DNA of 64,000 bases from Novosphingobium sp. 9U (GTDB lineage Bacteria > Pseudomonadota > Alphaproteobacteria > Sphingomonadales > Sphingomonadaceae). The stretch spans positions 2,346,770 to 2,410,769 of the forward strand of contig NZ_LR732469.1 of assembly GCF_902506425.1 (NCBI RefSeq). The letters run 5' to 3'. A program made the translations under genes and the position numbers. Shown here piece after piece: positions 5,256 through 31,916 of the stretch (the first letter of the stretch is position 1; each line of letters begins with the position of its first letter). The notes under the pieces are model-generated. The model was not told where the DNA came from, did no database searches, and worked only from the letters and a program-made list of their open reading frames with translations.

Positions 5256-5274
5256 ATCCGACAAATCGTCGAAT
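5256..5274. promoter_or_regulatory. Inverted repeat, probable TetR operator copy 1
   Basis: ATCCGA-CAAATCG-TCGAAT: two 6-bp arms with a 7-bp spacer, one mismatch in the outer arm. It lies in the divergent region between the amidohydrolase (start 5137) and the thiolase-like gene (start 5385). The same 6-7-6 arrangement occurs at 15447, 17569, 17737 and 31898. Inferred binding site of the TetR protein encoded at 16860-17555. The rest of this 247-nt gap shows no further gene. Confidence 0.65.
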
Positions 5275-5384
5275 TTGAGATTGACGGCGGCAATGGTGCG
5301 GCATACCACCAAGCCAAGGGCGGTGGCTCCAGCCGATGAATCGGCGGCGCATAAGCCGGCTTTGCTGGAACGAGGATTGCACTG

Positions 5385-6503
5385 ATGGCGCTAAAGAAGG
5401 TGGCGGTCGTAGCGACTGCCCAGACCGAATTGCGGCCTGCCTGGCGGGACGCACAGCATATCGACCTAATCTCGTCGGTCGTCACTTCCGTGTTCAAGGG
5501 ATCGGGTTTCTCGATCGACGACGTCGACTTCGTGATCGACTCCGGGAGCGACGTGCTCGACGGCCGCTCAATCTCGAACTGCGGCTTTTTGGGTGCGCTC
5601 GGTGCGCACCACAAGGAAGAGGCGCGCGTCGAAGAAGACGGCATCTATTCGGCGCTCTACGGCGTCAACAAGATCCGCTCGGGCGCCGCTTCGCTGGGTC
5701 TCATCGTGGCCTACTCGAAGCCCTCGGAATCGATCGTCGACAACTACTGGGTCTCGCAGGTCGATCCTTATTACCAGCGGCCGGTCGGCTTCAGCCAGCG
5801 TGCCGCCAGCGGCATCCAGGCCCAGCGCTACCTCGCTGCGAGCGGCTTGTCGGAGCGCCAGATCGCCGAGATCGTTGCCAAGCGGTGGGAAGCTGCACAG
5901 GCGAACGGCGGCGTTCAGATCGACAGCCTGCCCGATGTTGACGCGGTGCTCGGTTCGTCCGAGTGCGCAGCGCCGCTCACCGACCTGATGATGGCGCGAC
6001 CCCTCGATGGCGCTGTCGCCATCCTGATCGCCAGCGAAGACCTGGCGCGCCGCAGTGGCGGCAATCCGGTGTTCGTCACCGGCATGGGTTCGGGCACTGA
6101 CAGCCACTCTTTTGCAGATCGCGATACCTCGCGATTGCGTTCGCTAGAGAGCGCAGCGGCCATGGCGGCTCGCGCATCGGGCTGGTCGGCGAAGGAAGCT
6201 GATATTGCCGAGATCAGCGCTTCGTCGGTCGTCGGCGAACTACTCGCGATCGAAGGCCTTGGTCTCGCCGAAAGCGGCAAGGGCCTTGATCAGGCCTTCG
6301 ACGGCAAGGTCGCGGTGAACCGCTCGGGCGGCGCACTCCCTGCCGATCCGATCATGGCGACGGGCCTCGTGCGCATGGTGGAAGCGGTGCGCCAACTGCG
6401 CGAGCCGCAGCTCTACGGTGGCGGCAACCCGCAGCGGGCCGTCGTTCACGGCGCCATCGGCGTCGGCATGCAGGGCAACTGCGTCTTCAATCTCGAGGTT
6501 TGA
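5385..6503 (+). CDS. Thiolase-superfamily protein lacking catalytic residues (subunit 1)
   Basis: A 372-residue thiolase-fold protein with SCP2-thiolase/Ltp-type layout. The usual catalytic features are missing: at the nucleophile position the sequence reads DGIYSALYG with no Cys, the GHP motif is replaced by ALPADPIMATG, and the last Cys-GGG motif by GAIGVGMQG. Known relatives with lost thiolase chemistry include the steroid side-chain aldolase Ltp2 and partner subunits of BbsAB-type thiolases. It is followed 2 nt later by a second thiolase-like gene and then a DUF35 gene, so I infer one subunit of a heteromeric retro-aldolase or thiolase complex. First gene of the rightward operon 5385-14627. 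Confidence 0.85.
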   Translation: MALKKVAVVATAQTELRPAWRDAQHIDLISSVVTSVFKGSGFSIDDVDFVIDSGSDVLDGRSISNCGFLGALGAHHKEEARVEEDGIYSALYGVNKIRSGAASLGLIVAYSKPSESIVDNYWVSQVDPYYQRPVGFSQRAASGIQAQRYLAASGLSERQIAEIVAKRWEAAQANGGVQIDSLPDVDAVLGSSECAAPLTDLMMARPLDGAVAILIASEDLARRSGGNPVFVTGMGSGTDSHSFADRDTSRLRSLESAAAMAARASGWSAKEADIAEISASSVVGELLAIEGLGLAESGKGLDQAFDGKVAVNRSGGALPADPIMATGLVRMVEAVRQLREPQLYGGGNPQRAVVHGAIGVGMQGNCVFNLEV

Positions 6504-6505
6504 TC

Positions 6506-7657
6506 ATGGGTCATCATGTAGGAATTGTCGGCGTTGGCCAGACGCACCACGCGCGCCGCCGTACCGATGTCGGCCCCGCCGGCCTCGTTCGTGAAGCGGT
6601 CGATCGCGCGCTCGCCGATGCGAAGCTGACGATCGAGGATATCGACAGCGTCGTCGTCGCCAGCGGCCCTGTGCTGTTCGCTGCCGTCAACCACCCCGAG
6701 CTGTGGGTCGCCAACGCGATCGGCGCGCAGAACAAGCCTGTCATGCGCGTCACCAGCGGCGGCGGTGCCGGCTTTGCCGGTGCACTCGCAGGCTATTACC
6801 AAGTGGCGGGCGGCTATGCCCAGCGCACCCTGGTGGTCGCTTACGACAAGCTGTCGGAAGGGCCGCTGCAGTACTCGATCTCGACGCTTTACGACCCGTT
6901 CTGGGGCCGTGAGTTCGCGGTCGGCATCATGGGCTTCTCGGCCGCTTACTGGCGTGCCCGCATGGACGTGCTCGGCCACACGGAGGAAGCGGCCGCGATG
7001 GTGGCGGTGAAGAACCGCGGCAATGCGGTGAACAACCCCTATGCGCACTTCAAGAAGCCGACGACGGTGGAGGAAGTGCTCGCGTCCAAGCCACTGTGCT
7101 GGCCGATCAAGCTGCACGACGTGCCGCCGATCTCGGACGGCGCTGCCGCCATCGTCCTCTCGAACGAGAAGATGGCGCATCACTCGACCGACCGTCCCGC
7201 CTGGATCCAGGGTATGGCTTACTGCTGCGAGGCCGACAATGCCGCCGAGCGTTCGCTGATGCTGTCGGAGCCGCTCGCGCTTGCATCGAAGATGGTCTAC
7301 CGCGCCGCCGGCATCACCAACCCGCGCCGCCAGTTCGACGTGGTTGAGGTGCAGGAGCCGTACTCCTGCTTCGAGCTCAACTACTACGAGAGCCTCGGTC
7401 TGTGTCCTCCGGGCCAGGCGGCCGAGCTGATCGCTTCGGGCGCCACCCAGCTCGACGGCGACATCCCGGTCAACCCTTCGGGCGGCTGCATGGGCGCAAA
7501 CCCGATCGGCGCGGTCGGCGTGATCCGCCTGATCGAGGCCGCGACGCAAGTCATGGGCCGCAACGAGAGCCACCAGATCAAGGACGCCAAGCTCGCGCTC
7601 GTGCAGTCCGGCGGAGGCTGGGCAAACTTGCGCGGCTGCGCCGTCCTGAGCGCTTGA
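6506..7657 (+). CDS. Thiolase-superfamily protein, SCP2/Ltp-like (subunit 2)
   Basis: About 383 residues. Start ATG at 6506 chosen because GAGG lies 7 nt upstream; an in-frame TTG at 6500 is also possible. Thiolase fold is clear, but the nucleophile segment reads RVTSGGGAGFAGA without Cys, the active-site loop is EPYSCFEL in place of HDCF/NEAF, and the C-terminal motif is NPSGGCMGANPIGAVG, where Asn stands in place of the GHP His but a Cys (GGC) is present. It is thus not a normal Cys-Cys-His thiolase. Together with the preceding gene and the DUF35 gene it matches the thiolase/thiolase/OB-fold set of steroid side-chain aldolases (Ltp2-ChsH2 type). Retro-aldol cleavage of a branched 3-hydroxyacyl-CoA is my preferred inference. 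Confidence 0.87.
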   Translation: MGHHVGIVGVGQTHHARRRTDVGPAGLVREAVDRALADAKLTIEDIDSVVVASGPVLFAAVNHPELWVANAIGAQNKPVMRVTSGGGAGFAGALAGYYQVAGGYAQRTLVVAYDKLSEGPLQYSISTLYDPFWGREFAVGIMGFSAAYWRARMDVLGHTEEAAAMVAVKNRGNAVNNPYAHFKKPTTVEEVLASKPLCWPIKLHDVPPISDGAAAIVLSNEKMAHHSTDRPAWIQGMAYCCEADNAAERSLMLSEPLALASKMVYRAAGITNPRRQFDVVEVQEPYSCFELNYYESLGLCPPGQAAELIASGATQLDGDIPVNPSGGCMGANPIGAVGVIRLIEAATQVMGRNESHQIKDAKLALVQSGGGWANLRGCAVLSA

Positions 7658-7669
7658 GGGAGAGCAGAC

Positions 7670-8596
7670 ATGTACTCAGCACCCGAAACACAGCCGATCG
7701 AACTCCCCACGTTCCATGCGGAAATCAGCCTTCCCTACACGCTGACCCCCGGCAAGGCGGTGGGCACGTTCCTGGCCGAAGTGAAGAACCGCCGCATCGT
7801 CGGCACCCGCTTCCCCGATGGCACGGTGATCGCGCCGGCGCAGGACTTCTCGCCTACCCATGGCGAGATGATGGAGAGCTTCGTCGAGGCTCCGCAGACC
7901 GGCGAACTCACTGCCTTCACCCGCTCCGACGGCCACATCATCGGCTTCATCAAGCTGGATGGCTGCACCAACGAATTCGCCCATCGCATTCTGGGCGACT
8001 TTGGTGACCTCAAGATCGGCCAGCGCGTGCAGGCCGAGTGGGACGACAGCGTCCAGGAGTCCGTCCTTGCGATCAAGGGCTTCCGTCCGGCCGCCGATGC
8101 GCCGGTGGGTTCGGTCGCGCCGCTGAGCGAAACCGAGGAAGCGCTGGGCACGATCAAGTACGCACTCTCGCTCCCTTATGAGCATGCCTATGGTCCGTAT
8201 TACGGGCGCATGTTCGACGAGATTAAGGAGAACGGCCGCGTCATGGGCGTGCGCTCGCCGGGTAGCGACCTCGCACTGTTGCCCCCGCGCGAGGTGGACG
8301 ACATCTCGCACAAGCACACCGGCACCTGGAAGACGTGCGCCGACACCGGCACCATCCGCGGCTGCTCGATCATCAACATGGAGTTCCTGGGCCAGACCCG
8401 CGAGCCCCCTTACGTCTATGCCGAGATCGTGCTCGACGGCGCCTCGACCCGCCTCATCCATATGATCGAGATCGAGAGCCTGGAGCACGCCAAGGAGCAC
8501 ATCAAGCCGGGCACCCGCGTCCGCGCAATCTGGAAGGAAGGCGAACGCATCGGATCGATGGCTGACATCGACCGCTTCGAGGTGATCGAAGAGTGA
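7670..8596 (+). CDS. Tandem DUF35 OB-fold protein, degenerate zinc ribbons
   Basis: A 308-residue protein made of two similar halves (about 15-145 and 163-305). Both begin with a SLPY segment; they then read GKAVGTFLAEVKNRRIVGTR and YGRMFDEIKENGRVMGVR, and each ends with an OB barrel of the type IKPGTRVRAIW. DUF35 proteins normally have one rubredoxin-like zinc ribbon (four Cys) plus one OB fold and bind thiolases or Ltp aldolases. Here the first half has lost the ribbon cysteines and the second keeps only KTCADTGTIRGC. I infer a scaffold or CoA-binding partner for the two thiolase-like proteins immediately upstream, with a fused pair replacing a heterodimer. Confidence 0.85.
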   Translation: MYSAPETQPIELPTFHAEISLPYTLTPGKAVGTFLAEVKNRRIVGTRFPDGTVIAPAQDFSPTHGEMMESFVEAPQTGELTAFTRSDGHIIGFIKLDGCTNEFAHRILGDFGDLKIGQRVQAEWDDSVQESVLAIKGFRPAADAPVGSVAPLSETEEALGTIKYALSLPYEHAYGPYYGRMFDEIKENGRVMGVRSPGSDLALLPPREVDDISHKHTGTWKTCADTGTIRGCSIINMEFLGQTREPPYVYAEIVLDGASTRLIHMIEIESLEHAKEHIKPGTRVRAIWKEGERIGSMADIDRFEVIEE

Positions 8597-9423
8597 GCAA
8601 CTGGACCGTCACCTCCCTGCGCATCGGCGAGCTGTACCTGCCTCACGGGGCAGGGCTGCAGCGCGACCCGATCCATGTCTGGCTTGCCCGTGACGGTCAG
8701 CACAATGTGCTGATCGACACTGGGATGGCCGACGTGGCGCTGGTCACCAAGCGACTCAAGGTCGAGGGCTGGGGTGGCGGTCACGCGACACTGACCAAGG
8801 TTCTGGCCGAAGAGGGCCTGACGCCCGGTGATATCGACCATATCGTCCTGACACACGGCCACTTCGACCATGCCGAGAACCTCGACTTGTTCCCGGACGC
8901 CTGCGTGGTGATCCAGCGAGACGAGATCTCGCACGCGGCGGATCCGGTGCCTTCGCAGCGGATCTATTACTGGGCCTCGACGATCGGCAATCTTGTCGCA
9001 CGCCGGCGGGGATCGCAGATCCGCGCGCTGGACGGCGACTGCGATCTGTTCGAGGGTTTCCGCATTCTCAAGGTGCCGAGCCACACGCCCGGCATGCAAG
9101 TGCCGATTATCACCACCGAGAAGGGCAAGGTGGCAGTCGCCTCGGACTTGGGCGACCACTATCGCTACTGGTATCCGGCCGACCCGCGCGCCACGGACCG
9201 CCCGCAGCGCTCGCTGTCCGACGCGTTCATGACCGGCAACATTCGCAGCGAAAGCGAGCGCGACTGGCAAGCGGCGATGCGCCGGGTTCGCGACGCTTCC
9301 GACATCGTCATCCCCGCCCATGACTTCCGCATTCCGGTCCGCGTGCCGGAGCAGTGGTTCGCAATCCCGGAATCGACCGCCGGCGACTTGGCTCACGAGC
9401 CGCCGCCGTCGCCGACCTCCTGA
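8593..9423 (+). CDS. Metallo-beta-lactamase-fold hydrolase
   Basis: A 276-residue MBL-fold protein. Metal motif THGHFDHAEN (HxHxDH, about residues 92-101), a later His in SHTPGMQV (about 168), an Asp in ASDLGDHYRYW (about 192) and a final His in PAHDF complete a plausible dinuclear site. The GTG start overlaps the DUF35 stop in a GTGA arrangement. The family includes lactonases (AiiA-like), glyoxalase II and thioesterases. Given the acyl-CoA neighbours it may open a lactone or hydrolyse a thioester; substrate is not visible. Confidence 0.88.
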   Translation: MSNWTVTSLRIGELYLPHGAGLQRDPIHVWLARDGQHNVLIDTGMADVALVTKRLKVEGWGGGHATLTKVLAEEGLTPGDIDHIVLTHGHFDHAENLDLFPDACVVIQRDEISHAADPVPSQRIYYWASTIGNLVARRRGSQIRALDGDCDLFEGFRILKVPSHTPGMQVPIITTEKGKVAVASDLGDHYRYWYPADPRATDRPQRSLSDAFMTGNIRSESERDWQAAMRRVRDASDIVIPAHDFRIPVRVPEQWFAIPESTAGDLAHEPPPSPTS

Positions 9424-9437
9424 AAGGCCTCCCGAGC

Positions 9438-10253
9438 ATGTCCTACGAAAACATCATCGTCGAGGTGAGCGACCGCATCGCCACTCTGACGCTCAACCGT
9501 CCCGACGCGATGAACGCGACCACCGATGGTCTCTATGGCGAGATGGCCGATGCGTTGCCCAAGCTGCGCAAGGATCCCGAAGTCTCGTGCGTTATTCTGA
9601 CCGGGGCAGGCCGGGGCTTCTGCGCCGGCGCCGACCTCAAAAACCGCCGTACCGACCTGACGCCGCTGCAGTTGAGCGCGCGTCACCGCTGGATTCTCAA
9701 GAACGTGCTGCAGCCGCTGCACGATATCGAGAAGCCAGTGATCGCCGCCGTTAACGGTGCGGCCGCGGGCGCCGGTGCGAACATGGTGCTCGCCTGCGAT
9801 TTCGCGATCGCCAGCGAGAACGCCAGCTTTACCCAGGCTTTCGCGAAAGTCGGCCTGGTGCCTGATCTGGGCGGCCTGTTCTTCCTGCAACGCGCCGTCG
9901 GGATCGCCCGGGCCAAGGAGCTCGCCTATTCCGCGCGCAAGGTGGCCGCGGCAGAGGCACTGGAACTCGGCCTCGTGCAGAAGGTCGTGCCACATGACGA
10001 GCTGCTGTCCACCGCACGCGAGATGGCGCTGGCGATCAGCCGAAATGCGCCAACCGCGATCGGCATGATGAAGACGCTGTTCAACAAGTCGCAATACGCC
10101 ACCTTCGACCAGATGGTCGAGTACGAGGCCTACGCGCAGACCGTCGCCTTTGTGTCGCCCGACTACATGGAAGGTGTGATGGCTTTCCGCGAGAAGCGTG
10201 CTCCCGAGTTCAAGGGCGGCGCCGCGCAGACCGACGACCAGACCTGGCGCTGA
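9438..10253 (+). CDS. Enoyl-CoA hydratase/isomerase family protein (PaaG-like)
   Basis: A 271-residue crotonase. Seen: the CoA/oxyanion region RGFCAGADLKNR (about residue 60), NGAAAGAGANMVLACD (about 108) and KVGLVPDLGGLFFL (about 140). The Asp in GLVPD with no Glu in the hydratase positions resembles PaaG-type isomerases rather than classical hydratases, so an enoyl-CoA isomerase role is as likely as hydration. ATG at 9438 follows the MBL stop by 14 nt with an AAAGG site upstream. Co-transcribed with the acyl-CoA dehydrogenase pair that follows. Confidence 0.9.
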   Translation: MSYENIIVEVSDRIATLTLNRPDAMNATTDGLYGEMADALPKLRKDPEVSCVILTGAGRGFCAGADLKNRRTDLTPLQLSARHRWILKNVLQPLHDIEKPVIAAVNGAAAGAGANMVLACDFAIASENASFTQAFAKVGLVPDLGGLFFLQRAVGIARAKELAYSARKVAAAEALELGLVQKVVPHDELLSTAREMALAISRNAPTAIGMMKTLFNKSQYATFDQMVEYEAYAQTVAFVSPDYMEGVMAFREKRAPEFKGGAAQTDDQTWR

Positions 10254-10266
10254 AGGGAGGCAGTCG

Positions 10267-11457
10267 ATGGACTTCAGCTATTCCCCCGATGAGGAAGATT
10301 TCCGCCAGCGCCTGCGCAGCTGGCTGAAGGACGCACTGCCGATCGGCTGGGGCGAGACCGTCTTCGAACCCGAGGACGAGGAGGAACGCTACATGTTCCG
10401 CCGCGACTGGGACCGTAAGCTGCACTCGGGCGGGTGGACCGGCATCAATTGGCCGATCGAATACGGCGGTCGGGGTGCTACCCTGGTCGAGCGGGCGATC
10501 TTCGCCGAGGAAATGGCGCGCGCGCGGGCTCCCGAAAGCCTGAACATCATCGGTCAGAACCTCGCCGGGCCGACGATCCTGACGTACGGCACGGAGGCGC
10601 AAAAGGCGCGCTTCCTGCCCAAGATCATCTCGTCGGACGAGATCTGGTGCCAGGGTTTCTCCGAGCCCAACGCCGGCTCCGACCTCGCATCGGTCCGCAC
10701 GCGGGCGGAGCGGCGTGGCGACAAGTTCATCGTCAATGGCCAGAAGATCTGGACCAGCTACGCACAGTTCTCGCAGTGGTGCTTCGCGCTGGTGCGGACG
10801 GACCCCGACGCGCCCAAGCACAAGGGCCTGAGCTTCCTACTGATCGACATGAGCAGCCCGGGCATCTCGATCCGGCCATTGCGCCAGATCTCGGGCGAAA
10901 GCGAGTTCAACGAGACCTTCTTCGACGATGTCGAGGTGCCGATCGAGAACCTCGTCGGCGAGGTCAACGAGGGCTGGAAGATCGCCATGACCACGCTCGC
11001 CTACGAGCGCGGTCCGGAGGATTGCCTCGGTCGCCAGATCCGGTTCAAGCAGGAGTTGGAGCATCTGATCGATGTTGCGGCTGAGACGCCGCGTCAGGAC
11101 GGGGTCCTGACCGACGATCCGTTGGTGCTCGAAAAGCTCGGCCGCTCGATCGTCGAAGTCGAAGCCATGCGCCTTGCCGCCCTGCGCAGCTTCAGCCGCT
11201 ACCTGCACGGCGAGAGCCGCGGACCCGACGCCTCGATCATCAAGCTGTACTGGAGCCACGCGGCGCAGCGCATGTATGAAAATGCGCTCGACATCCTGGG
11301 CCCGGAGGCGGTGATATCCGGCAACGATCCGCAGGCAGCCGCCGGCGGCAGGTTCCAGATGAGCTACCTGCAGTCCAAGGCCTTCACGATCTACTCCGGC
11401 TCTTCGGAGATCCAGCGCAACATCATTGGCGAGCGGTTGCTCGGCCTGCCGCGCTGA
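10267..11457 (+). CDS. Acyl-CoA dehydrogenase, large subunit type
   Basis: About 396 residues, FAD-dependent acyl-CoA dehydrogenase. Seen: QGFSEPNAGSDLASV and VNGQKIWTS (FAD/substrate beta domain, about residues 130-165), an ITTL-like helix TTLAYERG, and C-terminal IYSGSSEIQRNIIGERLLG. Start ATG at 10267 has a strong GGGAGG 6-7 nt upstream. It is immediately followed by a second, shorter and divergent acyl-CoA dehydrogenase; such pairs form alpha2-beta2 heterotetramers in steroid side-chain oxidation (FadE26/27, FadE28/29 type). I infer a heteromeric dehydrogenase for a bulky or branched acyl-CoA. Confidence 0.93.
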   Translation: MDFSYSPDEEDFRQRLRSWLKDALPIGWGETVFEPEDEEERYMFRRDWDRKLHSGGWTGINWPIEYGGRGATLVERAIFAEEMARARAPESLNIIGQNLAGPTILTYGTEAQKARFLPKIISSDEIWCQGFSEPNAGSDLASVRTRAERRGDKFIVNGQKIWTSYAQFSQWCFALVRTDPDAPKHKGLSFLLIDMSSPGISIRPLRQISGESEFNETFFDDVEVPIENLVGEVNEGWKIAMTTLAYERGPEDCLGRQIRFKQELEHLIDVAAETPRQDGVLTDDPLVLEKLGRSIVEVEAMRLAALRSFSRYLHGESRGPDASIIKLYWSHAAQRMYENALDILGPEAVISGNDPQAAAGGRFQMSYLQSKAFTIYSGSSEIQRNIIGERLLGLPR

Positions 11458-11477: not shown

Positions 11478-12614
11478 ATGGATTTCGCCTTCAATGAGGA
11501 GCAGCGCAGCCTCGGCGAGACGGTCGCCAAGGTGCTGGCCGATTTCCCGGCGCTGACGGGACCCGATCCCGAGCGCGGGCAGGACGACGCGGCCTGGCAG
11601 GCTCTTGCCGAGCTCGGACTGTTCTCGCTGCTGGTGAGCGAGGCTGACGGTGGCGTCGGCCTGACGCTGATCGACGTTGCGCTTGCGGTAGAGGCGCTGG
11701 GCAGTGGCCTTGCACCCTCGCTGGTCGCGTCGACGCTGATAGCCACCGAACTGCTCAACCGTTTCGGCACGGCCACTCAAAAGGCCAAGTTCCTGCCGCA
11801 GGTCGCTGCCGGTGAACTGCGGATCGCGATCGCGGCGGCCGAGGCGGGCGTGGGCGACGCTCCCGGTGCTGTGGCTTGCAGCTCGACCGGTGGAAGGTTG
11901 AGCGGAACCAAGATTGCAGTTGCCGGTGCAGTCGATGCGGACTTGCTGCTGGTTCTCGCCAAGGGCGAGGCAGGCCCCGCGCTGATCCTGGTCGATCCAA
12001 CGGCTTCTGGAGTCACGATCCGTGAGCATGAAGCGCTCGATCCCTCTGCTGGGCTGTGCGAGGTGCGCCTTGCCGATGTCGCCGTCGAAAGCACGGCCAT
12101 CTTGGGGCAAGGCTCGGCAGGAGAAGCGGTTGAGACGCTGATCGATGTCGCTGCTACCTTCCATGCTGGCATGGCGATGGGCATCGCTGCGCGAATGCAG
12201 GACCTTGCGGTTGAGTACGCCAAGACACGGCAGCAATTCGGCCAGGCAATCGGCGCGTTTCAGTCGATCAAGCACCGCTGTGCCGACATGGCCGTGGCGG
12301 TCGAGGTGGGCAGGGCGACCGCATACTACGCATTCTGGGCTTGCACCGGCAACGAGCCTGACCGTTCGCGCAGTGCTTCGGCTGCCAAAGCCTACTGCTC
12401 AGAGATCGCGCGAGACGTGTGCAACGATGCGATTCAGATCCACGGCGGTATGGGTTTCACCTGGGAGCTTGGCCTGCATCGCTATCTGCGCCGCGCCAAG
12501 GTGATCGAACACGCGTTCGGCGGTCGTGCGTGGCACTATGCCCGTGTCACCACCGAGACGCTGGCGATGCGCGGCGACACCGGCGAGGCGTTGCCAGAGC
12601 GCCGGGTGGCTTGA
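11478..12614 (+). CDS. Acyl-CoA dehydrogenase, partner subunit type
   Basis: A 378-residue acyl-CoA dehydrogenase homologue, divergent in its N-terminal and middle domains; the usual FSEPxAGSD segment is replaced by an AAAEAGVGDAPGAV stretch. The C-terminal domain is well kept: YAKTRQQFGQAIGAFQSIKH, DAIQIHGGMGFTWE and RRAKVIEHAFGG. This is the pattern of the non-identical subunit of heteromeric ACADs. It follows the preceding gene by 20 nt and precedes the biotin carrier gene by 1 nt. Confidence 0.92.
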   Translation: MDFAFNEEQRSLGETVAKVLADFPALTGPDPERGQDDAAWQALAELGLFSLLVSEADGGVGLTLIDVALAVEALGSGLAPSLVASTLIATELLNRFGTATQKAKFLPQVAAGELRIAIAAAEAGVGDAPGAVACSSTGGRLSGTKIAVAGAVDADLLLVLAKGEAGPALILVDPTASGVTIREHEALDPSAGLCEVRLADVAVESTAILGQGSAGEAVETLIDVAATFHAGMAMGIAARMQDLAVEYAKTRQQFGQAIGAFQSIKHRCADMAVAVEVGRATAYYAFWACTGNEPDRSRSASAAKAYCSEIARDVCNDAIQIHGGMGFTWELGLHRYLRRAKVIEHAFGGRAWHYARVTTETLAMRGDTGEALPERRVA

Positions 12615-12615
12615 G

Positions 12616-13134: not shown

Positions 13135-13172
13135 CGCTGGGCGGCCGCCAGAGCCGCCAGGAGACATTGCTG

Positions 13173-15446: not shown

Positions 15447-15465
15447 ATCCGACTCTTCATCGGTA
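15447..15465. promoter_or_regulatory. Inverted repeat, probable TetR operator copy 2
   Basis: ATCCGA-CTCTTCA-TCGGTA. It begins 15 nt upstream of the dehydrogenase start (15432) and lies in the divergent region shared with the P450 gene (15589). In the dehydrogenase orientation the arm runs directly into the ribosome binding site (TCGGATTTGAGAGAGG), the same geometry as copies 3 and 5. Confidence 0.7.
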
Positions 15466-17555: not shown

Positions 17556-17568
17556 ACACTTTCTCCAA

Positions 17569-17755: not shown

Positions 17756-17840
17756 TAGGTTTGACGCCTCAGTTTGGCCCATGTACCTCTAAGTTCAACA
17801 GAGCGCGCCGATTGAGGTGACGCCGGGATGGGAGACGGAG

Positions 17841-20186: not shown

Positions 20187-20248
20187 CGAGAAACCACGTC
20201 GGCAAGCTGCCTGAACAAGCGGCGCCCGACATCGGGAGGATGAGAAGC

Positions 20249-24774: not shown

Positions 24775-24776
24775 TC

Positions 24777-25205
24777 ATGGGCGTCAAGACCGATCCCGCA
24801 GCAGCTGCGATCGACAACGCGCGCGCCATGCTCGAAACTTTCCTCGCGAGCGACTGGAAAGAGATTCACGTCGCGAGCGCAGAGCTGGAGTTGTTCATCG
24901 CGCGCGATAGCGGCGGTGCCAATCCGATGCGTGCGGCTTTGCCGGCAAACGAGGGCTCGGCGCTTGAGGCGCCCGCCGCGGGAGCCCATCACGAGGTGAA
25001 GGCGCCCCACGTGGCGACATTGGTCTCGGTGGTTCCTGAGGGCACCTGGGTCGAGCAGGGCGAGCCTGTCGCTCGGCTGTCAGTGCTCGACGAAGAAGAG
25101 GATCTACCCGCACCCGTGAGCGGGCGCTTGGCCTCGGCTACCCGGAACGCGGGCGACTTGGTCGAGTTCGGCGATGTCCTGCTGACGCTCGAGGAGGCCG
25201 CCTGA
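24777..25205 (+). CDS. Biotinyl/lipoyl-domain protein without the attachment lysine
   Basis: 142 residues. The N-terminal segment ARAMLETFLASDWKEIHV aligns with the same region of the two AccB-like carriers in this window, and the C-terminal half has the biotinyl/lipoyl barrel pattern (VKAPHVATLVSVVPEGTWVEQG ... PAPVSGRLASATRNAGDLVEFGDVLLTL, given here in parts). At the hairpin where carriers have EVMK it reads SVLDEEEDL, with no Lys, so it cannot carry biotin in the normal way. Probably a structural or regulatory subunit of the carboxylase, or a decaying paralogue. Its start lies 2 nt after the carboxylase stop and its stop overlaps the next ATG. Confidence 0.8.
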   Translation: MGVKTDPAAAAIDNARAMLETFLASDWKEIHVASAELELFIARDSGGANPMRAALPANEGSALEAPAAGAHHEVKAPHVATLVSVVPEGTWVEQGEPVARLSVLDEEEDLPAPVSGRLASATRNAGDLVEFGDVLLTLEEAA

Positions 25206-26611
25206 TGTCGCAAGCGCCAGTGCGAATTGCCGTCTGCGGGGCAGGAGCCATGGGTTCGGGCATCGCCGAGATCGCTGCTCAGCGCGGTGCGAACGTCAAG
25301 GTGTTCGACGTCAACGCCGATGCGCTGGCCGGCAGCGAGGCTCGCATAACCAAGTCGATCGAGAAGCTCGCCGCTAAGGGCAAGCTCACGTCCGAAGATG
25401 CCGCTGCGATCCGTGGCCGCATGCAGTGGGTCTCCAGCCTCGACGAACTTGCGGACTGCGAACTGGTGATCGAAGCGATCATCGAGGACGCCGCCATCAA
25501 AGGTCGCCTGTTCGAGGGGCTTGAGGCCGTGGTGAGTCCGGAGGCGGTGATCGCCACCAATACATCGTCACTGCCGATCGGACGCCTCGCTCGCGCATTG
25601 AGCCGGCCAGAGCGCTTCGTCGGCATGCACTTCTTCAACCCTGCGACCGCGATGAAGCTTGTCGAGGTGATCAGCGGTCCGGCTACGGCGCCCGCGGCCG
25701 CACAACTGGTCATCGCTGCGGCCGAGACTTGGGGCAAGGTAGCGGTGCCGGTTGCCGACGTGCCCGGCTTCATCGTCAATCGCGTGGCGCGGCCTTACTA
25801 CGCGGAGGCTTTCACCGCCTTGTCCGAGAAGGCGGCCGAAGCGCACGAGATCGACGCGCTGTTTCGCGCGGTCGGCTTCCGCATGGGCCCGCTTGAGCTG
25901 ACGGACCTCATCGGCCAGGACGTGAACTTCTCCGTCGCCCGGTCGGTCTATGAGTCCTACTTCGGCCAGACCCGTTTCGTGCCGCAGCTGATGCAGAGCG
26001 CGCTGGTCGATGCCGGATGGCTGGGGCGCAAGAGCGGCAGAGGGATCTACGACCATTCCGAAGGCGCTCCACCATTGCCGGAGATCGCGGCTACTCGGGC
26101 GCAGGCGAACGGTGCTCACCGGACGGCCGCGGGCCAGCTCGCTCCGGGAGAACTGCTTGCGGTCGACGATGCGATGGTCGGAATGACGGCGGGCGCCACT
26201 GCCCGGTCGGCGGCGAAGCGGGTCGGCAGCGAAGTTGCCTTGATCGACTGGTTCACGCCCGACGGGCAAGGTCCCATTGGCTATTCCGCGTCGGGCCCGC
26301 AAGCGTCGGCAGCAGCCGAGGGCGTGATCGCCGCGCTCGGCCGTCCGGCAGTGCAGATAGCCGACCGCCCCGGGCTGATCGTCTGCCGCACGCTCGCGCA
26401 GATCGCGAACGCTGCGGCTGACGCGGTGTTCGAGCATGTCTCGGACGAACAGGGCATCGACTCCGCCCTGCGTTTTGGCGCCAACTATCCTTTCGGGCCT
26501 TTCGCCTGGGCCGACCGTGTGGGCCGCGCCACTGTGGCCCGGACGCTGCGCACGATCGCCGAGGAGACGGGCCAGGCGATGTACCTGCCCTCGCAATACC
26601 TGAGAGACTGA
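25205..26611 (+). CDS. 3-hydroxyacyl-CoA dehydrogenase
   Basis: A 468-residue NAD-dependent dehydrogenase. Seen: GAGAMGSGIAE (Rossmann, about residue 12), ELVIEAIIED (about 88), ATNTSSLPI (about 118), VGMHFFNPATAMKLVEVI (catalytic His/Glu region, about 138-155), then one complete 3HCDH C-terminal domain (VPGFIVNRVARPYYAEA) and a second one near the end (GANYPFGPFAWADRVG). The two C-terminal domains match the PaaH/FadB2-long type. ATGA-type overlap with the preceding gene. Oxidises the hydroxyacyl-CoA made by the crotonases. Confidence 0.93.
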   Translation: MSQAPVRIAVCGAGAMGSGIAEIAAQRGANVKVFDVNADALAGSEARITKSIEKLAAKGKLTSEDAAAIRGRMQWVSSLDELADCELVIEAIIEDAAIKGRLFEGLEAVVSPEAVIATNTSSLPIGRLARALSRPERFVGMHFFNPATAMKLVEVISGPATAPAAAQLVIAAAETWGKVAVPVADVPGFIVNRVARPYYAEAFTALSEKAAEAHEIDALFRAVGFRMGPLELTDLIGQDVNFSVARSVYESYFGQTRFVPQLMQSALVDAGWLGRKSGRGIYDHSEGAPPLPEIAATRAQANGAHRTAAGQLAPGELLAVDDAMVGMTAGATARSAAKRVGSEVALIDWFTPDGQGPIGYSASGPQASAAAEGVIAALGRPAVQIADRPGLIVCRTLAQIANAAADAVFEHVSDEQGIDSALRFGANYPFGPFAWADRVGRATVARTLRTIAEETGQAMYLPSQYLRD

Positions 26612-26612
26612 T

Positions 26613-27395
26613 ATGGCCGAGACTCCCGAGATCCTCCTCGTCGAACCGCAGGGCGAGGGCGTGCTGCTGCTGCGGCTCAACAGGCCGGAGAAGCGCAACG
26701 CACTTGCAACCGATCTCCTCACTCGCGTGGCCGACGCGCTGGATGCGGCCGCGGCTGACACGCAAGTGCGCGTCGTTGTGATCACGGGATCCGATCGCTT
26801 CTTCGCGGCAGGTGCCGACATCAACGAACTCGCGAGCCGCGACACCAGCGGCGCCTTGAGCGATCCGCGTCCGGCGATCTGGGCTCGGATTCGCACCTTC
26901 GCCAAGCCGTTGCTCGCAGCCGTCGAGGGTTGGTCGCTGGGCGCCGGCAACGAGCTGGTGATGTGCTGCGATCTGGTCATAAGCGGCGAGGGCGGCAAGT
27001 TCGGTCAGCCCGAGACCAACCTCGGGATCATCCCTGGTGCCGGCGGCACCGCGACGCTCCCGCGCCTGGTCGGACGTAGCCGGGCGATGAAGATGGTCCT
27101 GCTCGGCGAACCGCTGGGGGCTCGCGAAGCGATGGCTGCAGGGCTGGTCTGCGACGTGGTCGAGGATGGTCAGGCGCTCACCGCAGCTCTCGACATGGCG
27201 AAGACCTTGGCGAGCCGTGCTCCGCTCGCGATCCAGCAGGGCAAGGCCATGGTCCGCGCCGCCTTCGAAACGCAGCAGGCGGCGCATCTCGTCCTCGAAC
27301 GGCACGCCTTCTCGGCATTGTTCGGTACCAAGGACAAGGCTGAGGGCACTGCCGCCTTCTTCGAAAAGCGCTCGCCCGAGTGGACCGGCGCCTGA
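26613..27395 (+). CDS. Enoyl-CoA hydratase
   Basis: A 260-residue crotonase with both hydratase glutamates: GAGNELVMCCD (about residue 110) and QPETNLGIIPGAGGT (about 132). Oxyanion region FFAAGADINEL. C-terminal FFEKRSPEWTG is typical. This is the most conventional hydratase in the window. Starts 1 nt after the dehydrogenase stop, so hydration and oxidation steps are co-produced. Confidence 0.93.
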   Translation: MAETPEILLVEPQGEGVLLLRLNRPEKRNALATDLLTRVADALDAAAADTQVRVVVITGSDRFFAAGADINELASRDTSGALSDPRPAIWARIRTFAKPLLAAVEGWSLGAGNELVMCCDLVISGEGGKFGQPETNLGIIPGAGGTATLPRLVGRSRAMKMVLLGEPLGAREAMAAGLVCDVVEDGQALTAALDMAKTLASRAPLAIQQGKAMVRAAFETQQAAHLVLERHAFSALFGTKDKAEGTAAFFEKRSPEWTGA

Positions 27396-27405
27396 CGCGC
27401 GACGC

Positions 27406-28380
27406 GTGAAGACGCGCATCACAGAGCTGTTCGGGATCCGCTATCCCATCATCCAGGGCGGGATGCAGAACGTCGGCTATGCCGAGCTTGCGTCCGCCGT
27501 GTCGAATGCCGGCGGCCTGGGCTTGATCACCGCCCTGACCTTTCCCGATTCCGCAAACCTTGCTGCGGAGATCGCGCGCTGTCGTAGCATGACGGGCGCA
27601 CCGTTCGGCGTGAACATCTCCGTTTTCCCGACGACGCGCCCGCCTGATTACCCGGCGATCGTCGCCGCCACTGCCGACGCCGGCGTGACCATCGTCGAGA
27701 CCGCAGGTACGCCCGAAGTGCGCGGCGTCTGGGACATGCTGCTCGCGCGCGGCATCACGATCATCCACAAGTGCACCTCGGTGCGGCACGCGCTTTCGTC
27801 CGAGAAGCATGGCGTGCACGCGATCTCGATCGATGGTTTCGAGTGTGCCGGCCATCCCGGAGAGGACGACGTTCCCGGTCTGGTGCTGATCCCGGTCGCG
27901 GCCGACCAGCTAAAGGTGCCGGTCGTGGCGAGCGGTGGCATCGCCGACGGGCGCGGGCTTGTTGCGGCGCTGGCGCTCGGGGCAGAGGGCGTCAACATGG
28001 GCACGCGCTTCTGCGCGACCCGCGAGGCGCCGATCCACGCGCGGATCAAGCAGGCCTATCTCGACGGCGACGAACGCGAGACCGACCTGATCTTCCGCCC
28101 CTTCCGCAATAGCGCCCGCGTCGGACGCAATGCGGTCTCACAGGAAGTCCTGCGCCGCACCAGCGGTCCTGAGCCTCGCTATGAGGACATAGCCGAGCTC
28201 GTAAGCGGCGAGCGGGGCCGAGAGCTCCTGCGCACCGGTGAGATCGACACCGGCATCTTCTGGTCGAGCATGGCACAAGGCCTGATCCACGACATTCCAA
28301 GCTGCGCCGAGCTGATCGAGCGCATCATGGCCGAGGCACATCAGATCATCGAGCAGAGGCTGGCCGGTCGCCTGATCTAG
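27406..28380 (+). CDS. Nitronate monooxygenase family FMN protein (NPD-like)
   Basis: About 324 residues, FMN TIM barrel of the 2-nitropropane dioxygenase family. Seen: FGIRYPIIQGGMQNVG, SNAGGLGLI, IDGFECAGHPGEDD (about residue 145) and VVASGGIADGRGL (FMN phosphate region, about 172). GTG at 27406 begins the conserved N-terminus; upstream in-frame sequence overlaps the crotonase and is unconserved. Besides nitronate oxidation the family includes enoyl reductases and quinone reductases, and in catabolic clusters members often act on unsaturated acyl-CoAs. Its stop overlaps that of the convergent crotonase in a CTAG palindrome at 28377-28380. Confidence 0.88.
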   Translation: MKTRITELFGIRYPIIQGGMQNVGYAELASAVSNAGGLGLITALTFPDSANLAAEIARCRSMTGAPFGVNISVFPTTRPPDYPAIVAATADAGVTIVETAGTPEVRGVWDMLLARGITIIHKCTSVRHALSSEKHGVHAISIDGFECAGHPGEDDVPGLVLIPVAADQLKVPVVASGGIADGRGLVAALALGAEGVNMGTRFCATREAPIHARIKQAYLDGDERETDLIFRPFRNSARVGRNAVSQEVLRRTSGPEPRYEDIAELVSGERGRELLRTGEIDTGIFWSSMAQGLIHDIPSCAELIERIMAEAHQIIEQRLAGRLI

Positions 28381-29159
28381 ATGCCCGGGCGGCCCAGGAC
28401 GGCATCGACGCCCTTGCGGCTCGCCTCCGACCCGGCGAACCGTGCCGACGTGCGTTGCGCCGTCACGTAGGCGTCGAACCACTCGGTGCCTTCCAGCGAT
28501 AGCGAGTTGCGCTTGCGCGCGCGCATGATCGCGCTGTCCTTGGCTGCAACCTGGCCAGCAAGCTCCAGCGCCTTGGTGAGTACTTCATCTTTCGGGACTA
28601 CGTAGTTGAAGAAGCCGGTGCTTTCGATCTCTCGCGCGGTGAACTTGCGGCCGGTGTAGAGCATCTCGCGCAGTTTCGGTTCCGGCAGGCGCAGCGCCAC
28701 GAAGCGGCCTGCGCAGCCGCTCAGCAGGCCATAGTCGATCTCAGGCAACGAGAAGGCGGCGTCCTCCGCGGCAACACGGAAGTCGCACAAGCTCGCGAGC
28801 ACCATGCCGACGCCGATCGCGGCACCGTTGATCGCGGCGATGATCGGACGGTCGATCGCGTGGAAGCGCGGCAACTGCTCGTTGATAAAGGCGTAGCGCT
28901 CCAGCCGGCGCGCTTTGTCGATGCCCTTGAAGTCGTTGAGGTCCGCCCCGCCGCACCAGGCGCGCGCGAAGGAAGGTGCGGTGAGAACGAGTGCTTTCAC
29001 GGCATCGTTGTCTTCGACAAGTGCGGCGATCTGCCCAAGGTCTTCATAGACCGAGAGCGAGACAGCATTCACCGGCGGCCTGGAGAAGACGATCTTCAGG
29101 ACGCCTTGGTCGAGCCATTCGAGCGCGAACGACCCGATCTGGCGCGGATCAGTGGGCAT
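28377..29159 (-). CDS. Enoyl-CoA hydratase/isomerase family protein (tandem copy B)
   Basis: A 260-residue crotonase. Seen: RPPVNAVSLSVYEDLG, RAWCGGADLNDF, INGAAIGVGMVLASLCDFRVA and PEIDYGLLSGCAG. The first hydratase Glu (GNE/GCE) is replaced (GVGM), while the second is kept (PEIDYG). It shares long matching stretches with the next gene upstream (FSRPPVNAVSLSVY; ESTGFFNYVVP), so the two are a tandem duplication. Last gene of the leftward operon from 31885; overlaps the upstream copy by 11 nt. Confidence 0.9.
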   Translation of the reverse strand: MPTDPRQIGSFALEWLDQGVLKIVFSRPPVNAVSLSVYEDLGQIAALVEDNDAVKALVLTAPSFARAWCGGADLNDFKGIDKARRLERYAFINEQLPRFHAIDRPIIAAINGAAIGVGMVLASLCDFRVAAEDAAFSLPEIDYGLLSGCAGRFVALRLPEPKLREMLYTGRKFTAREIESTGFFNYVVPKDEVLTKALELAGQVAAKDSAIMRARKRNSLSLEGTEWFDAYVTAQRTSARFAGSEASRKGVDAVLGRPGI

Positions 29160-29946
29160 CGAGGCCGCGGCGCAGTGCTGCTTGCACCGCCGCCTCGCTC
29201 TCGGGGCGTTCCACCAAGGCGGACGAGGCTTCCTGCGCCTCCAGGTAGGCGTCCATCCACTCCGGCCCTTCGAACATCAGCGAAGCCAGCTTGCGAGCGC
29301 GCAAGGCGGGCAGGGCCTTGCCGGCGATCTGATCGGCGAGGTCGAGCGCCAGGGGCAGCACTGCGGGCCGCGGCACGACGTAGTTGAAGAAGCCGGTGCT
29401 CTCCAACTCGCGCGCGGTGAAGGCGCGGCCGGTGTAGACCATCTCCCGGACCTTGGCCTCAGGCATGCGCAAGGTCGCGAGCAGGCCGGCACTGCCGCCG
29501 ATCAGACCGTAGTCCACCTCAGGGCAGGCAAACTTCGCGCTCTCGCTGGCGACGCGCAAGTCGCACATGCCCGCCAGCATGACGCCGACGCCGATCGCCG
29601 CGCCATTAATCGCGGCGATCATCGGCCGATCTATGCGGTGGAAGCGCGGCAGGCGTTCGTTGATGTGGTCGTAGCGCTCCTTGCGACGGGCCGCGGTCAT
29701 ACCTTCGAACTCGCGCAAGTCGGCGCCGCCGCACCAGGCACGTGATTGCGCAGAGGCCGCAATGACGATCACCTTGATGCGGTCGTTCAAGTCGATGTGC
29801 TCGGCCAAGCGGCCGATATCGTCGTAGACCGAGAGCGACACGGCGTTCACCGGCGGTCGCGAGAACACCACCAGCGCCACGCCGTTTTCGCGCACCTCAA
29901 GCGAGAAGGCGCCAAAGCCCAATTGCTCGACAACTTGCGTCAGCAT
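29149..29946 (-). CDS. Enoyl-CoA hydratase/isomerase family protein (tandem copy A)
   Basis: A 265-residue crotonase closely related to the following gene. Seen: SRPPVNAVSLSVYDDIG, RAWCGGADLREF, NGAAIGVGVMLAGMCDLRVA, PEVDYGLIGGSAG and ARELESTGFFNYVVP. Only the second hydratase Glu is kept. Starts 1 nt after the CoA-transferase B stop. The pair may form a heteromer or handle two stereoisomers; neither can be told from sequence. Confidence 0.9.
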   Translation of the reverse strand: MLTQVVEQLGFGAFSLEVRENGVALVVFSRPPVNAVSLSVYDDIGRLAEHIDLNDRIKVIVIAASAQSRAWCGGADLREFEGMTAARRKERYDHINERLPRFHRIDRPMIAAINGAAIGVGVMLAGMCDLRVASESAKFACPEVDYGLIGGSAGLLATLRMPEAKVREMVYTGRAFTARELESTGFFNYVVPRPAVLPLALDLADQIAGKALPALRARKLASLMFEGPEWMDAYLEAQEASSALVERPESEAAVQAALRRGLDAH

Positions 29947-29947
29947 G

Positions 29948-30589
29948 TCAGGCCGCCATCTCGAGTTCGAGGCCAGTCAGTTCGCTCAGCTTGTCGAGAG
30001 TCAGGCCGTCCACCAGTTCGATCACGCGCGCGCCCTCGGGGCCGACGCTGAACACGCCCAGGTCCGAGTAGATGCGCGAGACGCAGCCCAGCCCGGTGAG
30101 CGGGTAAGTGCACACGTCCACCAACTTGCTCTCGCCGGTCTTGCTCAGCAGCTCCATCATCACAAAGACCTGCTTCGCGCCTACGGCCAGGTCCATGGCG
30201 CCACCCACGGCGGGGATCGCGTCCTTGGCGCCGGTGTGCCAGTTGGCGAGGTCGCCCTTAACCGACACCTGGTATGCGCCCATCACGCAGATATCGATGT
30301 GGCCGCCGCGCATCATCGAGAAGCTGTCGCCGTGGTGGAAGAAGCAGCCACCGGTGAGGAGGGTAACCGGCTGCTTGCCGGCGTTGATGAGGTCCCAGTC
30401 GATCGCGTCCTCGGCCGGTGCAGGGCCCATGCCCAGGATGCCGTTCTCGCTGTGGAGGAAGTAGTCGCGTCCACCCGGCAGGTAGTTCGCCACCTTTGTC
30501 GGCAAGCCGATGCCCAGGTTGACGTAGGCACCTTCGGGAATGTCGCGGGCGACCCTGGCGGCCAAGGTATCGCGATCCATGCGTTGCAT
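29948..30589 (-). CDS. 3-oxoacid CoA-transferase-like, subunit B (copy 1)
   Basis: About 213 residues, family I CoA-transferase beta subunit (PcaJ/ScoB-like). Seen: VNLGIGLPTKVANYLP and the catalytic Glu motif SENGILGMGP (about residue 48), GGHIDICVMGAYQV and ELLSKTG. ATG at 30589 preferred because the AAGGA site lies about 8 nt upstream, while an ATG at 30598 abuts it. Pairs with subunit A at 30604. Transfers CoA between acids, for example succinyl-CoA to a 3-oxoacid or ring-cleavage acid. Confidence 0.92.
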   Translation of the reverse strand: MQRMDRDTLAARVARDIPEGAYVNLGIGLPTKVANYLPGGRDYFLHSENGILGMGPAPAEDAIDWDLINAGKQPVTLLTGGCFFHHGDSFSMMRGGHIDICVMGAYQVSVKGDLANWHTGAKDAIPAVGGAMDLAVGAKQVFVMMELLSKTGESKLVDVCTYPLTGLGCVSRIYSDLGVFSVGPEGARVIELVDGLTLDKLSELTGLELEMAA

Positions 30590-30603
30590 CGTTTCCATCC
30601 TTC

Positions 30604-31287
30604 TTATGCCGCCTTTGCCGCAGGTGCCGACGCGAGCACAACCCGATCGACGAAGATGCCGGGCGTCACCACCGTCTCTGGGTCGAGCGTGCCGAGTTCG
30701 TCGATCTCGTCGACCTGCACGATCGTCTGCTTGCCGGCCATCGCCATGATCGGGCCGAAGTTGCGCCCAGCCTTGCGGTACACGAGATTGCCCCAGCGAT
30801 CGGCAGCGCGGGCCTTCACCAACGCGAAGTCGGCATGGATCGGGTATTCCAGCACGTAGTGCTTGCCGTCGATCTCGCGGGTTTCCTTGCCCTCGGCCAG
30901 CATCGTGCCGTACCCCGTCGGGGTGAAAATGGCGCCGAGGCCGGAGCCGGCAGCCTGGATGCGGGCGGCAAGGTTGCCTTGGGGAACCAGCTCCAGCTCA
31001 AGGTCGCCGGAGCGATAGCGCTCCTCGAAGTGCGTGGATCCGGCCATGCGCGGGTAGGAGCAGATCACCTTGCGCACGCGATTGGCCTTGATCAGCGCGG
31101 CGATGCCGATCTCACCGGTCCCGGCGTTGTTGCTGATGATCGTGAGATCGGTAGCCCCGTGATCGACTACGGCCTCGATCAGCTCGGCCGGCACGCCGGC
31201 TTCGCCGAAACCGCTGATCATGATCGCGGAGCCGTCTCGAAGATCCTGCACGGCCTCCGCAAAGGAGGAAACGATTTTGTTGATCAT
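30604..31287 (-). CDS. 3-oxoacid CoA-transferase-like, subunit A (copy 1)
   Basis: A 227-residue family I CoA-transferase alpha subunit (PcaI/ScoA-like). Seen: IMISGFGEAGVPAELIEAV, ISNNAGTGEIG, FTPTGYGTMLAEGKE and LEYPIHADFALVKA. Lies between the flavin reductase (53 nt upstream) and subunit B (14 nt downstream) in the leftward operon. It differs appreciably from the second copy at 32112, so the two transferases probably have different acid substrates. Confidence 0.92.
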   Translation of the reverse strand: MINKIVSSFAEAVQDLRDGSAIMISGFGEAGVPAELIEAVVDHGATDLTIISNNAGTGEIGIAALIKANRVRKVICSYPRMAGSTHFEERYRSGDLELELVPQGNLAARIQAAGSGLGAIFTPTGYGTMLAEGKETREIDGKHYVLEYPIHADFALVKARAADRWGNLVYRKAGRNFGPIMAMAGKQTIVQVDEIDELGTLDPETVVTPGIFVDRVVLASAPAAKAA

Positions 31288-31339
31288 GGCGTTGCTTTCT
31301 TCTTCGTTCGGGGCGGCGTCCTCCCGCCCTCGCGTTGTC

Positions 31340-31885
31340 TCACGAGACGGCCTCTTCCAGGTTCGTCGCTCGGCAATAGCTGCCTTTCATATAGACGAGC
31401 GGGTCACCCTCTGCACGTGCGCGCATGTCATGGATCAGGCCGATGAAGACCGAGTGTGTTCCGTATTGGTGATGCTCTTCCACTTGGCATTCGAAAGACG
31501 CAACGCTGCGCTTGAGCATGGGCTGACCCATGGGACCATCTTCCCAGGCACCGGCCACGAATCGATCGGCGCCGTTCAGCCCACGCTGGGCCGAGAAGAT
31601 CGCAACCGTCTCGGTGTCGCTGCTGTCCAGCAGGTTTACGCTGAAGGCGCCGGAACGCAGGATGAGGTCATGGGCGCTTGCGCTGCGGTTGACGCAGACC
31701 AACAGCATGGGCGGATCGGCGCAGACCGAGTTCCATGCAGTTGCCGCCAATCCCGAGCGCTGGCCCTCTTCCGCAGAGCAGACGATAGCCACCGCGCCAG
31801 GCACCATACGCATTTGCGAAACAAAGCTGGCGCGATGGCTCTCCGCGTCGACGCGCGGCGGCATCGAAGCGCCCGAAATCGTCAT
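31340..31885 (-). CDS. Flavin reductase (FMN reductase of two-component monooxygenase)
   Basis: About 181 residues, flavin reductase-like FMN-binding split-barrel family. Seen: VSQMRMVPGAVAIVCS, GLAATAWNSVCADPPMLLVCVNRSAS and FSVNLLDSSD, the standard domain core. ATG at 31885 has GGAGAGGG just upstream; the operator at 31898-31916 lies immediately before that. Provides FMNH2 to a partner monooxygenase. The only luciferase-type monooxygenase in the window is at 18348, 12 kb away but apparently under the same regulator, so I infer they form one system. Confidence 0.9.
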   Translation of the reverse strand: MTISGASMPPRVDAESHRASFVSQMRMVPGAVAIVCSAEEGQRSGLAATAWNSVCADPPMLLVCVNRSASAHDLILRSGAFSVNLLDSSDTETVAIFSAQRGLNGADRFVAGAWEDGPMGQPMLKRSVASFECQVEEHHQYGTHSVFIGLIHDMRARAEGDPLVYMKGSYCRATNLEEAVS

Positions 31886-31897
31886 TGCCCTCTCCAA

Positions 31898-31916
31898 ATC
31901 CGATAAACTGTCGGAT
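31898..31916. promoter_or_regulatory. Inverted repeat, probable TetR operator copy 5 (best match)
   Basis: ATCCGA-TAAACTG-TCGGAT: perfect 6-bp arms, 7-bp spacer. It begins 13 nt before the flavin reductase start and lies in the divergent region with the second CoA-transferase pair (32112). As at copies 2 and 3 the arm runs into the ribosome binding site (TCGGATTTGGAGAGGG). Confidence 0.75.

Follow-up and report, generated by a model that had tools for sequence, protein, structure and literature searches.

A 64,000-nucleotide stretch of the Novosphingobium sp. 9U genome (hereafter the window; C1:2346770–2410769 in an assembly of 4,636,195 bases and 75 contigs) carries a cluster of catabolic genes about 33 kb long, in whose divergent intergenic regions an inverted repeat close to ATCCGA-N7-TCGRAT recurs. 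In other sphingomonad genera the corresponding promoters retain this one operator type amid DNA that has diverged. The repeats are highly likely to be the operators of the TetR-family regulator encoded at 16860–17555, and one repressor probably turns the pathway on and off, since the same sites precede most parts of the cluster and occupy the same places in related bacteria. The set of sites is real and conserved and very probably marks a TetR regulon, ordinary in kind and new in detail within the open-access literature. The original prediction had called the regulon undescribed, and we likewise found no paper describing it in that literature, most subscription papers falling outside it.

Inverted repeats in the window and in related loci

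Direct reading of the window sequence gives five 19-mer repeats, ATCCGACAAATCGTCGAAT at 5256–5274, ATCCGACTCTTCATCGGTA at 15447–15465, ATCCGAACGCTTATCGACT at 17569–17587, TTCCGACGAAATGTCGAAT at 17737–17755 and ATCCGATAAACTGTCGGAT at 31898–31916, all exactly where they had been predicted. All are in divergent intergenic DNA, again as predicted, the five copies occupying only four such regions because 17569 and 17737 share one. With a matrix built from 39 distinct sites of related loci (see below), the five score 27.4, 20.7, 8.6, 25.5 and 24.4, respectively. An additional weaker site, absent from the earlier list of five, is found at 5157–5175 (score 15.2). WTCCGAN7TCGRNW with at most one mismatch has 18 matches in the window, palindromes counting on both strands; 100 dinucleotide shuffles average 8.1 and never exceed 16. 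In a motif-blind test, every palindrome with arms of three bases and a gap of 2–14 (832 in all) was counted against shuffles; CGA-N7-TCG ranks first in the four divergent regions of the window (823 bases), with 6 occurrences against a mean of 0.26 and a maximum of 3 (200 shuffles).

A scan of named genomes gave 18 related loci (L031–L048) with a TetR 56–73% identical to that of the window; 16 of them are labelled sphingomonads, L032 is labelled only "bacterium" and L046 Gammaproteobacteria. The enzyme genes are conserved together with TetR in these loci. A matrix made from the five window sites has 38 matches scoring at least 18 there, 32 of them upstream of cluster-gene homologs (within 420 base pairs (bp) 5′ of a homolog of a window gene), none inside one and 6 elsewhere. 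At a score of at least 15 there are 59 matches, divided 45, 5 and 9 in the same order. Two hundred column-permuted matrices gave a mean of 0.22 upstream matches at this lower threshold (at most 5) and at most 2 at the higher one. When the close kin L032, L033, L038, L044 and L047 are left out, 30 of 39 matches of at least 15 are upstream in the remaining 13 loci. The motif-blind test on the same reduced set, covering up to 420 bp upstream of homologs (54 segments, 14,711 bases, 60 dinucleotide shuffles), also places CGA-N7-TCG first, with 42 occurrences where the shuffles average 6.9 and reach 13 at most (z 15.1; runner-up z 7.5).

The sites also keep their places. In 17 of the 18 loci tetR is preceded by one that scores at least 15, and 11 of 14 relative genes for the first short-chain dehydrogenase/reductase (SDR1) have a site of at least 18.7 on the relatives' matrix, centred 22–32 bp before the start. 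Sites picked by hand from those that the matrix located match the window with an identity of 0.74 upstream of tetR (14 relatives), 0.63 at SDR1 (10 relatives), 0.81 at the thiolase-like gene (3 relatives) and 0.82 at the flavin reductase or coenzyme A (CoA)-transferase (10 sites), values that are biased upward because the window matrix chose the sites; their flanks are 0.27–0.36 identical. A profile from 35 of the relatives' sites (four were left out by eye, two as deviating and two as near-duplicates or outliers) recovers the window sites 5256, 17737, 31898 and 15447 (best E each 0.006–0.14) and 5157 at E 0.88, and did not find 17569. Sites at the thiolase/amidohydrolase promoter are also present in stretches outside the training set in the genomes G303, G032, G428, G473 and G429; the strong site of G439 at this promoter is identical to a training site.

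The exact pattern ATCCGAN7TCGRAT occurs at two places in the whole genome, both within the window, and its reversed control at none. The relatives' profile, run over the whole genome at E ≤ 10, gives three matches, all at 5256 and 17737; 150 of 445 candidates were scored, and weak sites elsewhere may therefore be missed. Short patterns searched genome-wide were dropped as a sole test, being too degenerate to judge alone. Short-pattern matches outside the window that became loci were scored with the matrix and the two best places inspected. Of these, C1:2781527 (score 21.0) is the anticodon stem of tRNA-Asn, and C1:2057699 (17.0) is inside a 625-residue open frame that we take to be cellulose-synthase-subunit-like. 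The matches at C1:782615 and C1:825751 score about 15 each.

At E ≤ 1e-20, 6 of 397 family genomes have relatives of the regulator; its own genome is among these and has one match. At E ≤ 2 in 24 genomes, the profile matches none of the nine same-genus genomes without this TetR. Among plasmid records, none of 30 found with the TetR query reaches 60% identity and the best of 17 found with the query for the cytochrome P450 (E limit 1e-60) reaches 48%; by these two queries there is no plasmid copy of the cluster.

Some relatives carry further copies. L031–L034 have second tetR paralogs (67–68% identical to that of the window) beside the first (70–71%), preceded by operator-like sites, and further sites lie close to a second TonB-receptor gene. 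L046, a metagenome-assembled genome, has a 60% identical TetR, and operator-like sites accompany its P450, luciferase-like monooxygenase (LLM), TonB and thiolase-like genes; it represents either a transfer or a mislabelled bin. A second TetR group, 44–49% identical, neighbours related genes for a thiolase, amidohydrolase, ligase or carboxylase in L049–L053, metagenome-assembled genomes labelled Sterolibacteriaceae, Proteobacteria, Rhodospirillales, Caenibius and Acetobacteraceae, where the operator is only partly recognisable. A good palindrome, TTACGACAAGCTGTCGGAA at 6841–6859, lies within the SCP2-type thiolase-like gene of the window (6500–7657) and has comparable matches within that gene in L050 and L051; it is probably a coincidence of coding sequence.

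Operator geometry at the promoters

The operators stand in two geometries with respect to promoter elements, which were identified by eye. Geometry A is that of the SDR1, flavin reductase, tetR and amidohydrolase promoters: the operator is just ahead of the ribosome-binding site and beside a −10-like element where one is visible, abutting it at some promoters, and a bound dimer would therefore cover the transcription start. The sites at 15447–15465 (SDR1/P450 region), 17569–17587 (the weak copy before tetR) and 31898–31916 (flavin reductase/CoA-transferase region) are flush with the ribosome-binding site, directly adjoining TTTGAGAGA or TTTGGAGA ahead of the leftward start codon. For these three the arrangement of arm, TTTG and GAGA running into the leftward Shine–Dalgarno had thus been described correctly; the distance from operator centre to start is 24 bp at SDR1, 23 bp at tetR and 22 bp at the flavin reductase. 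In geometry B a conserved TTGAC −35-like element follows 4–6 bp after the end of the operator, so that a bound dimer would cover the −35 box. The two strong sites are placed in this way: 17737–17755, between tetR and the operon that begins with a SnoaL-like gene and the LLM gene, stands 5 bp ahead of a conserved TTGACG at 17761–17766, and 5256–5274, at the amidohydrolase/thiolase-like divergent promoter, stands 6 bp ahead of a TTGACG at 5281. A TTGAC 4–6 bp after the site is present upstream of tetR in the window and 13 of 14 relatives (the exception is L042) and at the thiolase-like operon in the window and two of three (the exception is L046).

The start of the amidohydrolase gene is most likely 5137, near the onset of homology to most relatives and preceded by GGAG. 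The weaker site at 5157–5175, centred 29 bp ahead of it, would therefore be the start-proximal operator of this gene. A second site 96–114 bp from the strong one is also present in G303, G032, G428, G439 and G473; in G303, G439 and G473 this partner falls within the amidohydrolase match as drawn by tblastn. The two sites of the tetR region are spaced by 168 bp in the window and by 166–167 bp in L037, L038 and L040, where the position of 17569 is kept and its counterparts match better. Pairs of a strong and a weak site 72–73 bp apart (about seven helical turns) are seen in L032 (12838/12910), L036 (12768/12840) and L047 (9819/9891), and both these and the 166–168-bp pairs were considered as looping pairs.

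These positions bear on two other explanations. The repeats could work in RNA, as 5′-leader hairpins or attenuators: three sites adjoin the ribosome-binding site, and 17737 could form a 5–6-bp stem and, read leftward, resembles a weak terminator. At the SnoaL and thiolase-like operons, however, the repeat is upstream of the −35-like element and therefore outside those transcripts, and with the geometry B sites ahead of the promoter we rate the hairpin idea as very improbable. The repeats could also be operators of another regulator, or TetR could act as an activator at the geometry B promoters, an operator upstream of the −35 element being in a position that activators also use. Against this, the gap to the −35 element varies between 4 and 6 bp where activators would be expected with fixed phasing, the geometry A site is beside the transcription start, and a site precedes tetR itself in nearly all the relative loci, as given above. 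We consider another regulator, or activation, unlikely, and prefer repression by TetR.

The TetR protein and the weight of the assignment

The N-terminus of the regulator matches the helix-turn-helix domain TetR_N of Pfam with 50.1 bits (cut-off 24). Its structure model is all helical, with a predicted local distance difference test (pLDDT) score of 87.3, and comes nearest to the acyl-CoA-binding FadR, whose fold it shares; against the NCBIfam FadR equivalog model it scores 67.8 bits, below the cut-off of 200. Palindromic candidate operators stand before both tetR and the divergent operon (17569 and 17737), the latter conserved in relatives. The closeness to FadR is a hint of a CoA-thioester inducer. 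Without substrate, TetR would hold the units, its own gene included, at a basal level. With substrate present, the P450 and an SDR would produce a ketone, which the LLM with the flavin reductase would convert to a lactone; hydrolases would open the lactone and the acyl-CoA ligase would then yield a CoA thioester, which may bind TetR, as acyl-CoA does FadR, and so release it. That the inducer is such a pathway CoA thioester we put, by this analogy, at about an even chance.

Several observations weigh against this reading. The looser pattern TYCGAHN5DTCGRA occurs 16 times in the genome against 15 for the reversed control; the case rests on position and conservation because the short motif alone is not enriched genome-wide. 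The copy at 17569 is weak, a consensus scan of 17540–17860 gave no sigma-70-like promoter, and at SDR1 neither L035 nor L048 has a site and that of L039 is weak. The presence of TetR in all 18 loci proves nothing, as the loci were retrieved with it and the co-occurrence is by selection; several are also close kin. The scores on the relatives' matrix and profile and the site identities are partly circular because the window matrix picked the relatives' sites; the five-site matrix with its permuted controls and the motif-blind palindrome test are free of that circularity. At E ≤ 2 the profile matches four of nine other-genus genomes without this TetR (E 0.84–1.65), chance-level matches being as good as most true ones; it misses G152 despite its TetR, and the matches in G088 and G070 are away from their TetR genes. 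The likeness to FadR is that of a shared fold, with 19–23% identity of the window TetR to Bacillus FadR (an acyl-CoA-responsive TetR) and Mycobacterium KstR2, and shows no ligand.

Two described repressors are close in kind. CamR of Pseudomonas putida (PMC4592980), a TetR-type repressor, autoregulated, likewise stands beside a CYP101-family P450 in a bicyclic monoterpenoid pathway. Its operator given there, CAGGCTCTATATCTGCGATATACTGAGCAT, is by eye unlike the ATCCGA-N7-TCGGAT found here, and here about eight units spread over 33 kb, beta-oxidation genes included, have the sites at their divergent promoters. EdcR, the estradiol repressor of Caenibius tardaugens, is similarly a TetR repressor from a sphingomonad whose palindromes stand at a number of catabolic promoters, at a TonB-receptor gene and at its own gene. 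Its palindrome, TnnCnnTACnAnTnGTAnnGnnA, overlaps the −10 element (PMC8700777) and, compared by eye, is not matched by the window sites, and the pathway genes differ from those here.

Transcription units, pathway and substrate

The cluster can be divided into eight units. Unit 1 runs leftward from the amidohydrolase-2 family gene (lactonase-like, 4049–5137) through an AMP-forming acyl-CoA ligase (2557–4110) and an alpha/beta hydrolase with a putative start (1643–2560) to a thiolase (445–1650). Unit 2, rightward, begins with the thiolase-like lipid-transfer-type protein (5385–6503) and continues with the SCP2-type thiolase-like protein (6500–7657), an OB-fold ChsH2-C domain protein that may be a retro-aldolase partner (7670–8596), a lactonase-like metallo-beta-lactamase-fold hydrolase (8593–9423), an enoyl-CoA hydratase (9354–10253), PimC-like and PimD/IpdE2-like acyl-CoA dehydrogenases (10198–11457 and 11478–12614), a biotin carboxyl carrier protein (12526–13134) and a carboxyltransferase of the pyruvate-carboxylase/transcarboxylase-5S type (13167–14627). 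The leftward SDR1 (14683–15432) is unit 3, the rightward P450 (15583–16824) unit 4, and tetR, leftward with a TTG start, unit 5. Unit 6, rightward, comprises the SnoaL-like protein (17828–18298), the LLM, which is type II Baeyer–Villiger-like (18348–19436), SDR2 (19440–20186), a TonB-dependent receptor (20183–22819), a biotin carboxyl carrier protein, biotin carboxylase and biotin-lipoyl protein (22904–25205), and a 3-hydroxyacyl-CoA dehydrogenase, a PaaF-like enoyl-CoA hydratase and a nitronate-monooxygenase-like protein (25205–28380). Unit 7, leftward (28377–31885), contains the flavin reductase (start 31885), CoA-transferase subunits A and B and two enoyl-CoA hydratases, and unit 8, rightward, a second CoA-transferase pair (32040–33478). 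A biotin-dependent carboxylase is thus split over two units (12526–14627 and 22904–25205), with three biotin/lipoyl carrier-like proteins and the carboxyltransferase, the latter 79–89% identical across relatives.

Conserved operators are found at units 1, 2, 3, 6 and 7, and the P450 and SDR1 have one intergenic region in common. In both G032 and G473 the CoA-transferase pair corresponding to 32040–33478 is set apart from the flavin-reductase operator and has no site of at least 15 nearby, and its membership is therefore uncertain. The view that five copies tie some 33 kb to one TetR thus holds as regards one conserved operator type at the divergent promoters and before tetR, and has to be qualified for the weak copy at 17569 and for this pair. 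The apparent completeness then ascribed to the regulon cannot be claimed, and the sixth site, at 5157, had been missed. Elsewhere the operator reaches other genes: a second P450–LLM pair has sites upstream of the LLM gene in G473 (18.4) and G439 (15.4 and 17.4), with no site of at least 15 at that of G032, and in Sphingobium sp. C100 (G303) additional sites precede SDR and LLM genes and also lie near a TonB-receptor gene.

The P450 is identical to CYP101J2 of Sphingobium yanoikuyae B2 at 300 of 397 residues (75.6%, 697 bits) and matches P450cam with 355 bits. CYP101J2 converts 1,8-cineole to 2-alpha-hydroxy-1,8-cineole (PMC5598857), and the window enzyme may do the same. The best solved match of the LLM is 3,6-diketocamphane monooxygenase (346 bits, nearly full length). 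That enzyme, a 1,6-monooxygenase, likewise works with a separate flavin reductase; the window LLM is clearly diverged from it, and the cluster encodes its flavin reductase in another unit, which has the same type of operator as the LLM unit. The presence in one cluster of an LLM (Bac_luciferase domain) and a separate flavin reductase (Flavin_Reduct domain) suggests the type II Baeyer–Villiger arrangement of the diketocamphane type. The known steps of cineole breakdown are hydroxylation, ketone formation by oxidation, and lactonisation (PMC4097962), and for each of them the cluster encodes a suitable type of enzyme. Breakdown of the opened ring via CoA thioesters would suit the remaining proteins: the acyl-CoA ligase, the SCP2-type thiolase with its ChsH2-C protein, the two acyl-CoA dehydrogenases, the hydratases, the PcaIJ-type CoA-transferases and the biotin carboxylase parts. 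We therefore regard a bicyclic monoterpenoid of the 1,8-cineole/camphor kind, a class of plant-oil compound that the original prediction had not named, as the likely substrate.

The regulon could be real and the name of the pathway wrong, the substrate being a steroid or another alicyclic compound. A luciferase-type monooxygenase is also reported in progesterone breakdown by a sphingomonad (PMC12239570), and the SCP2-thiolase, ChsH2-C and IpdE2-like proteins resemble steroid-pathway parts. Counting against a cineole-type substrate as well, no P450 lies beside SDR1 in six loci (L037, L038, L043, L044, L045 and L047), and the substrate may therefore differ between strains. On the other side stand the identity of the P450 to a cineole hydroxylase and the closeness of the LLM, among solved structures, to a camphor-pathway enzyme, and a Pfam scan of cluster proteins other than that at 1643–2560 gave no ring-cleaving dioxygenase domain. 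A steroid or other alicyclic substrate is the less probable reading on this evidence; we keep the bicyclic monoterpenoid.

Cineole gene sets past the first oxidations were hardly described in a 2014 review, as far as its available text goes (PMC4097962). Only tentatively, and with more doubt than confidence, do we extend the reading to the 33-kb regulon as the whole mineralisation pathway for a cineole-type bicyclic monoterpenoid in sphingomonads, which would combine TonB uptake, opening by P450, SDR and type II Baeyer–Villiger enzymes, a retro-aldol reaction and a biotin-dependent, pyruvate-carboxylase-type carboxylase whose substrate would be an intermediate derived from the terpenoid, with TetR sensing a pathway CoA thioester from two operator positions, over the −35 element and over the start site. 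The conserved operator marks genes that belong together and provides a testable list of pathway genes, the unusual biotin-dependent carboxylase included, and TetR with its promoter is a candidate terpenoid-responsive pair for biosensors.

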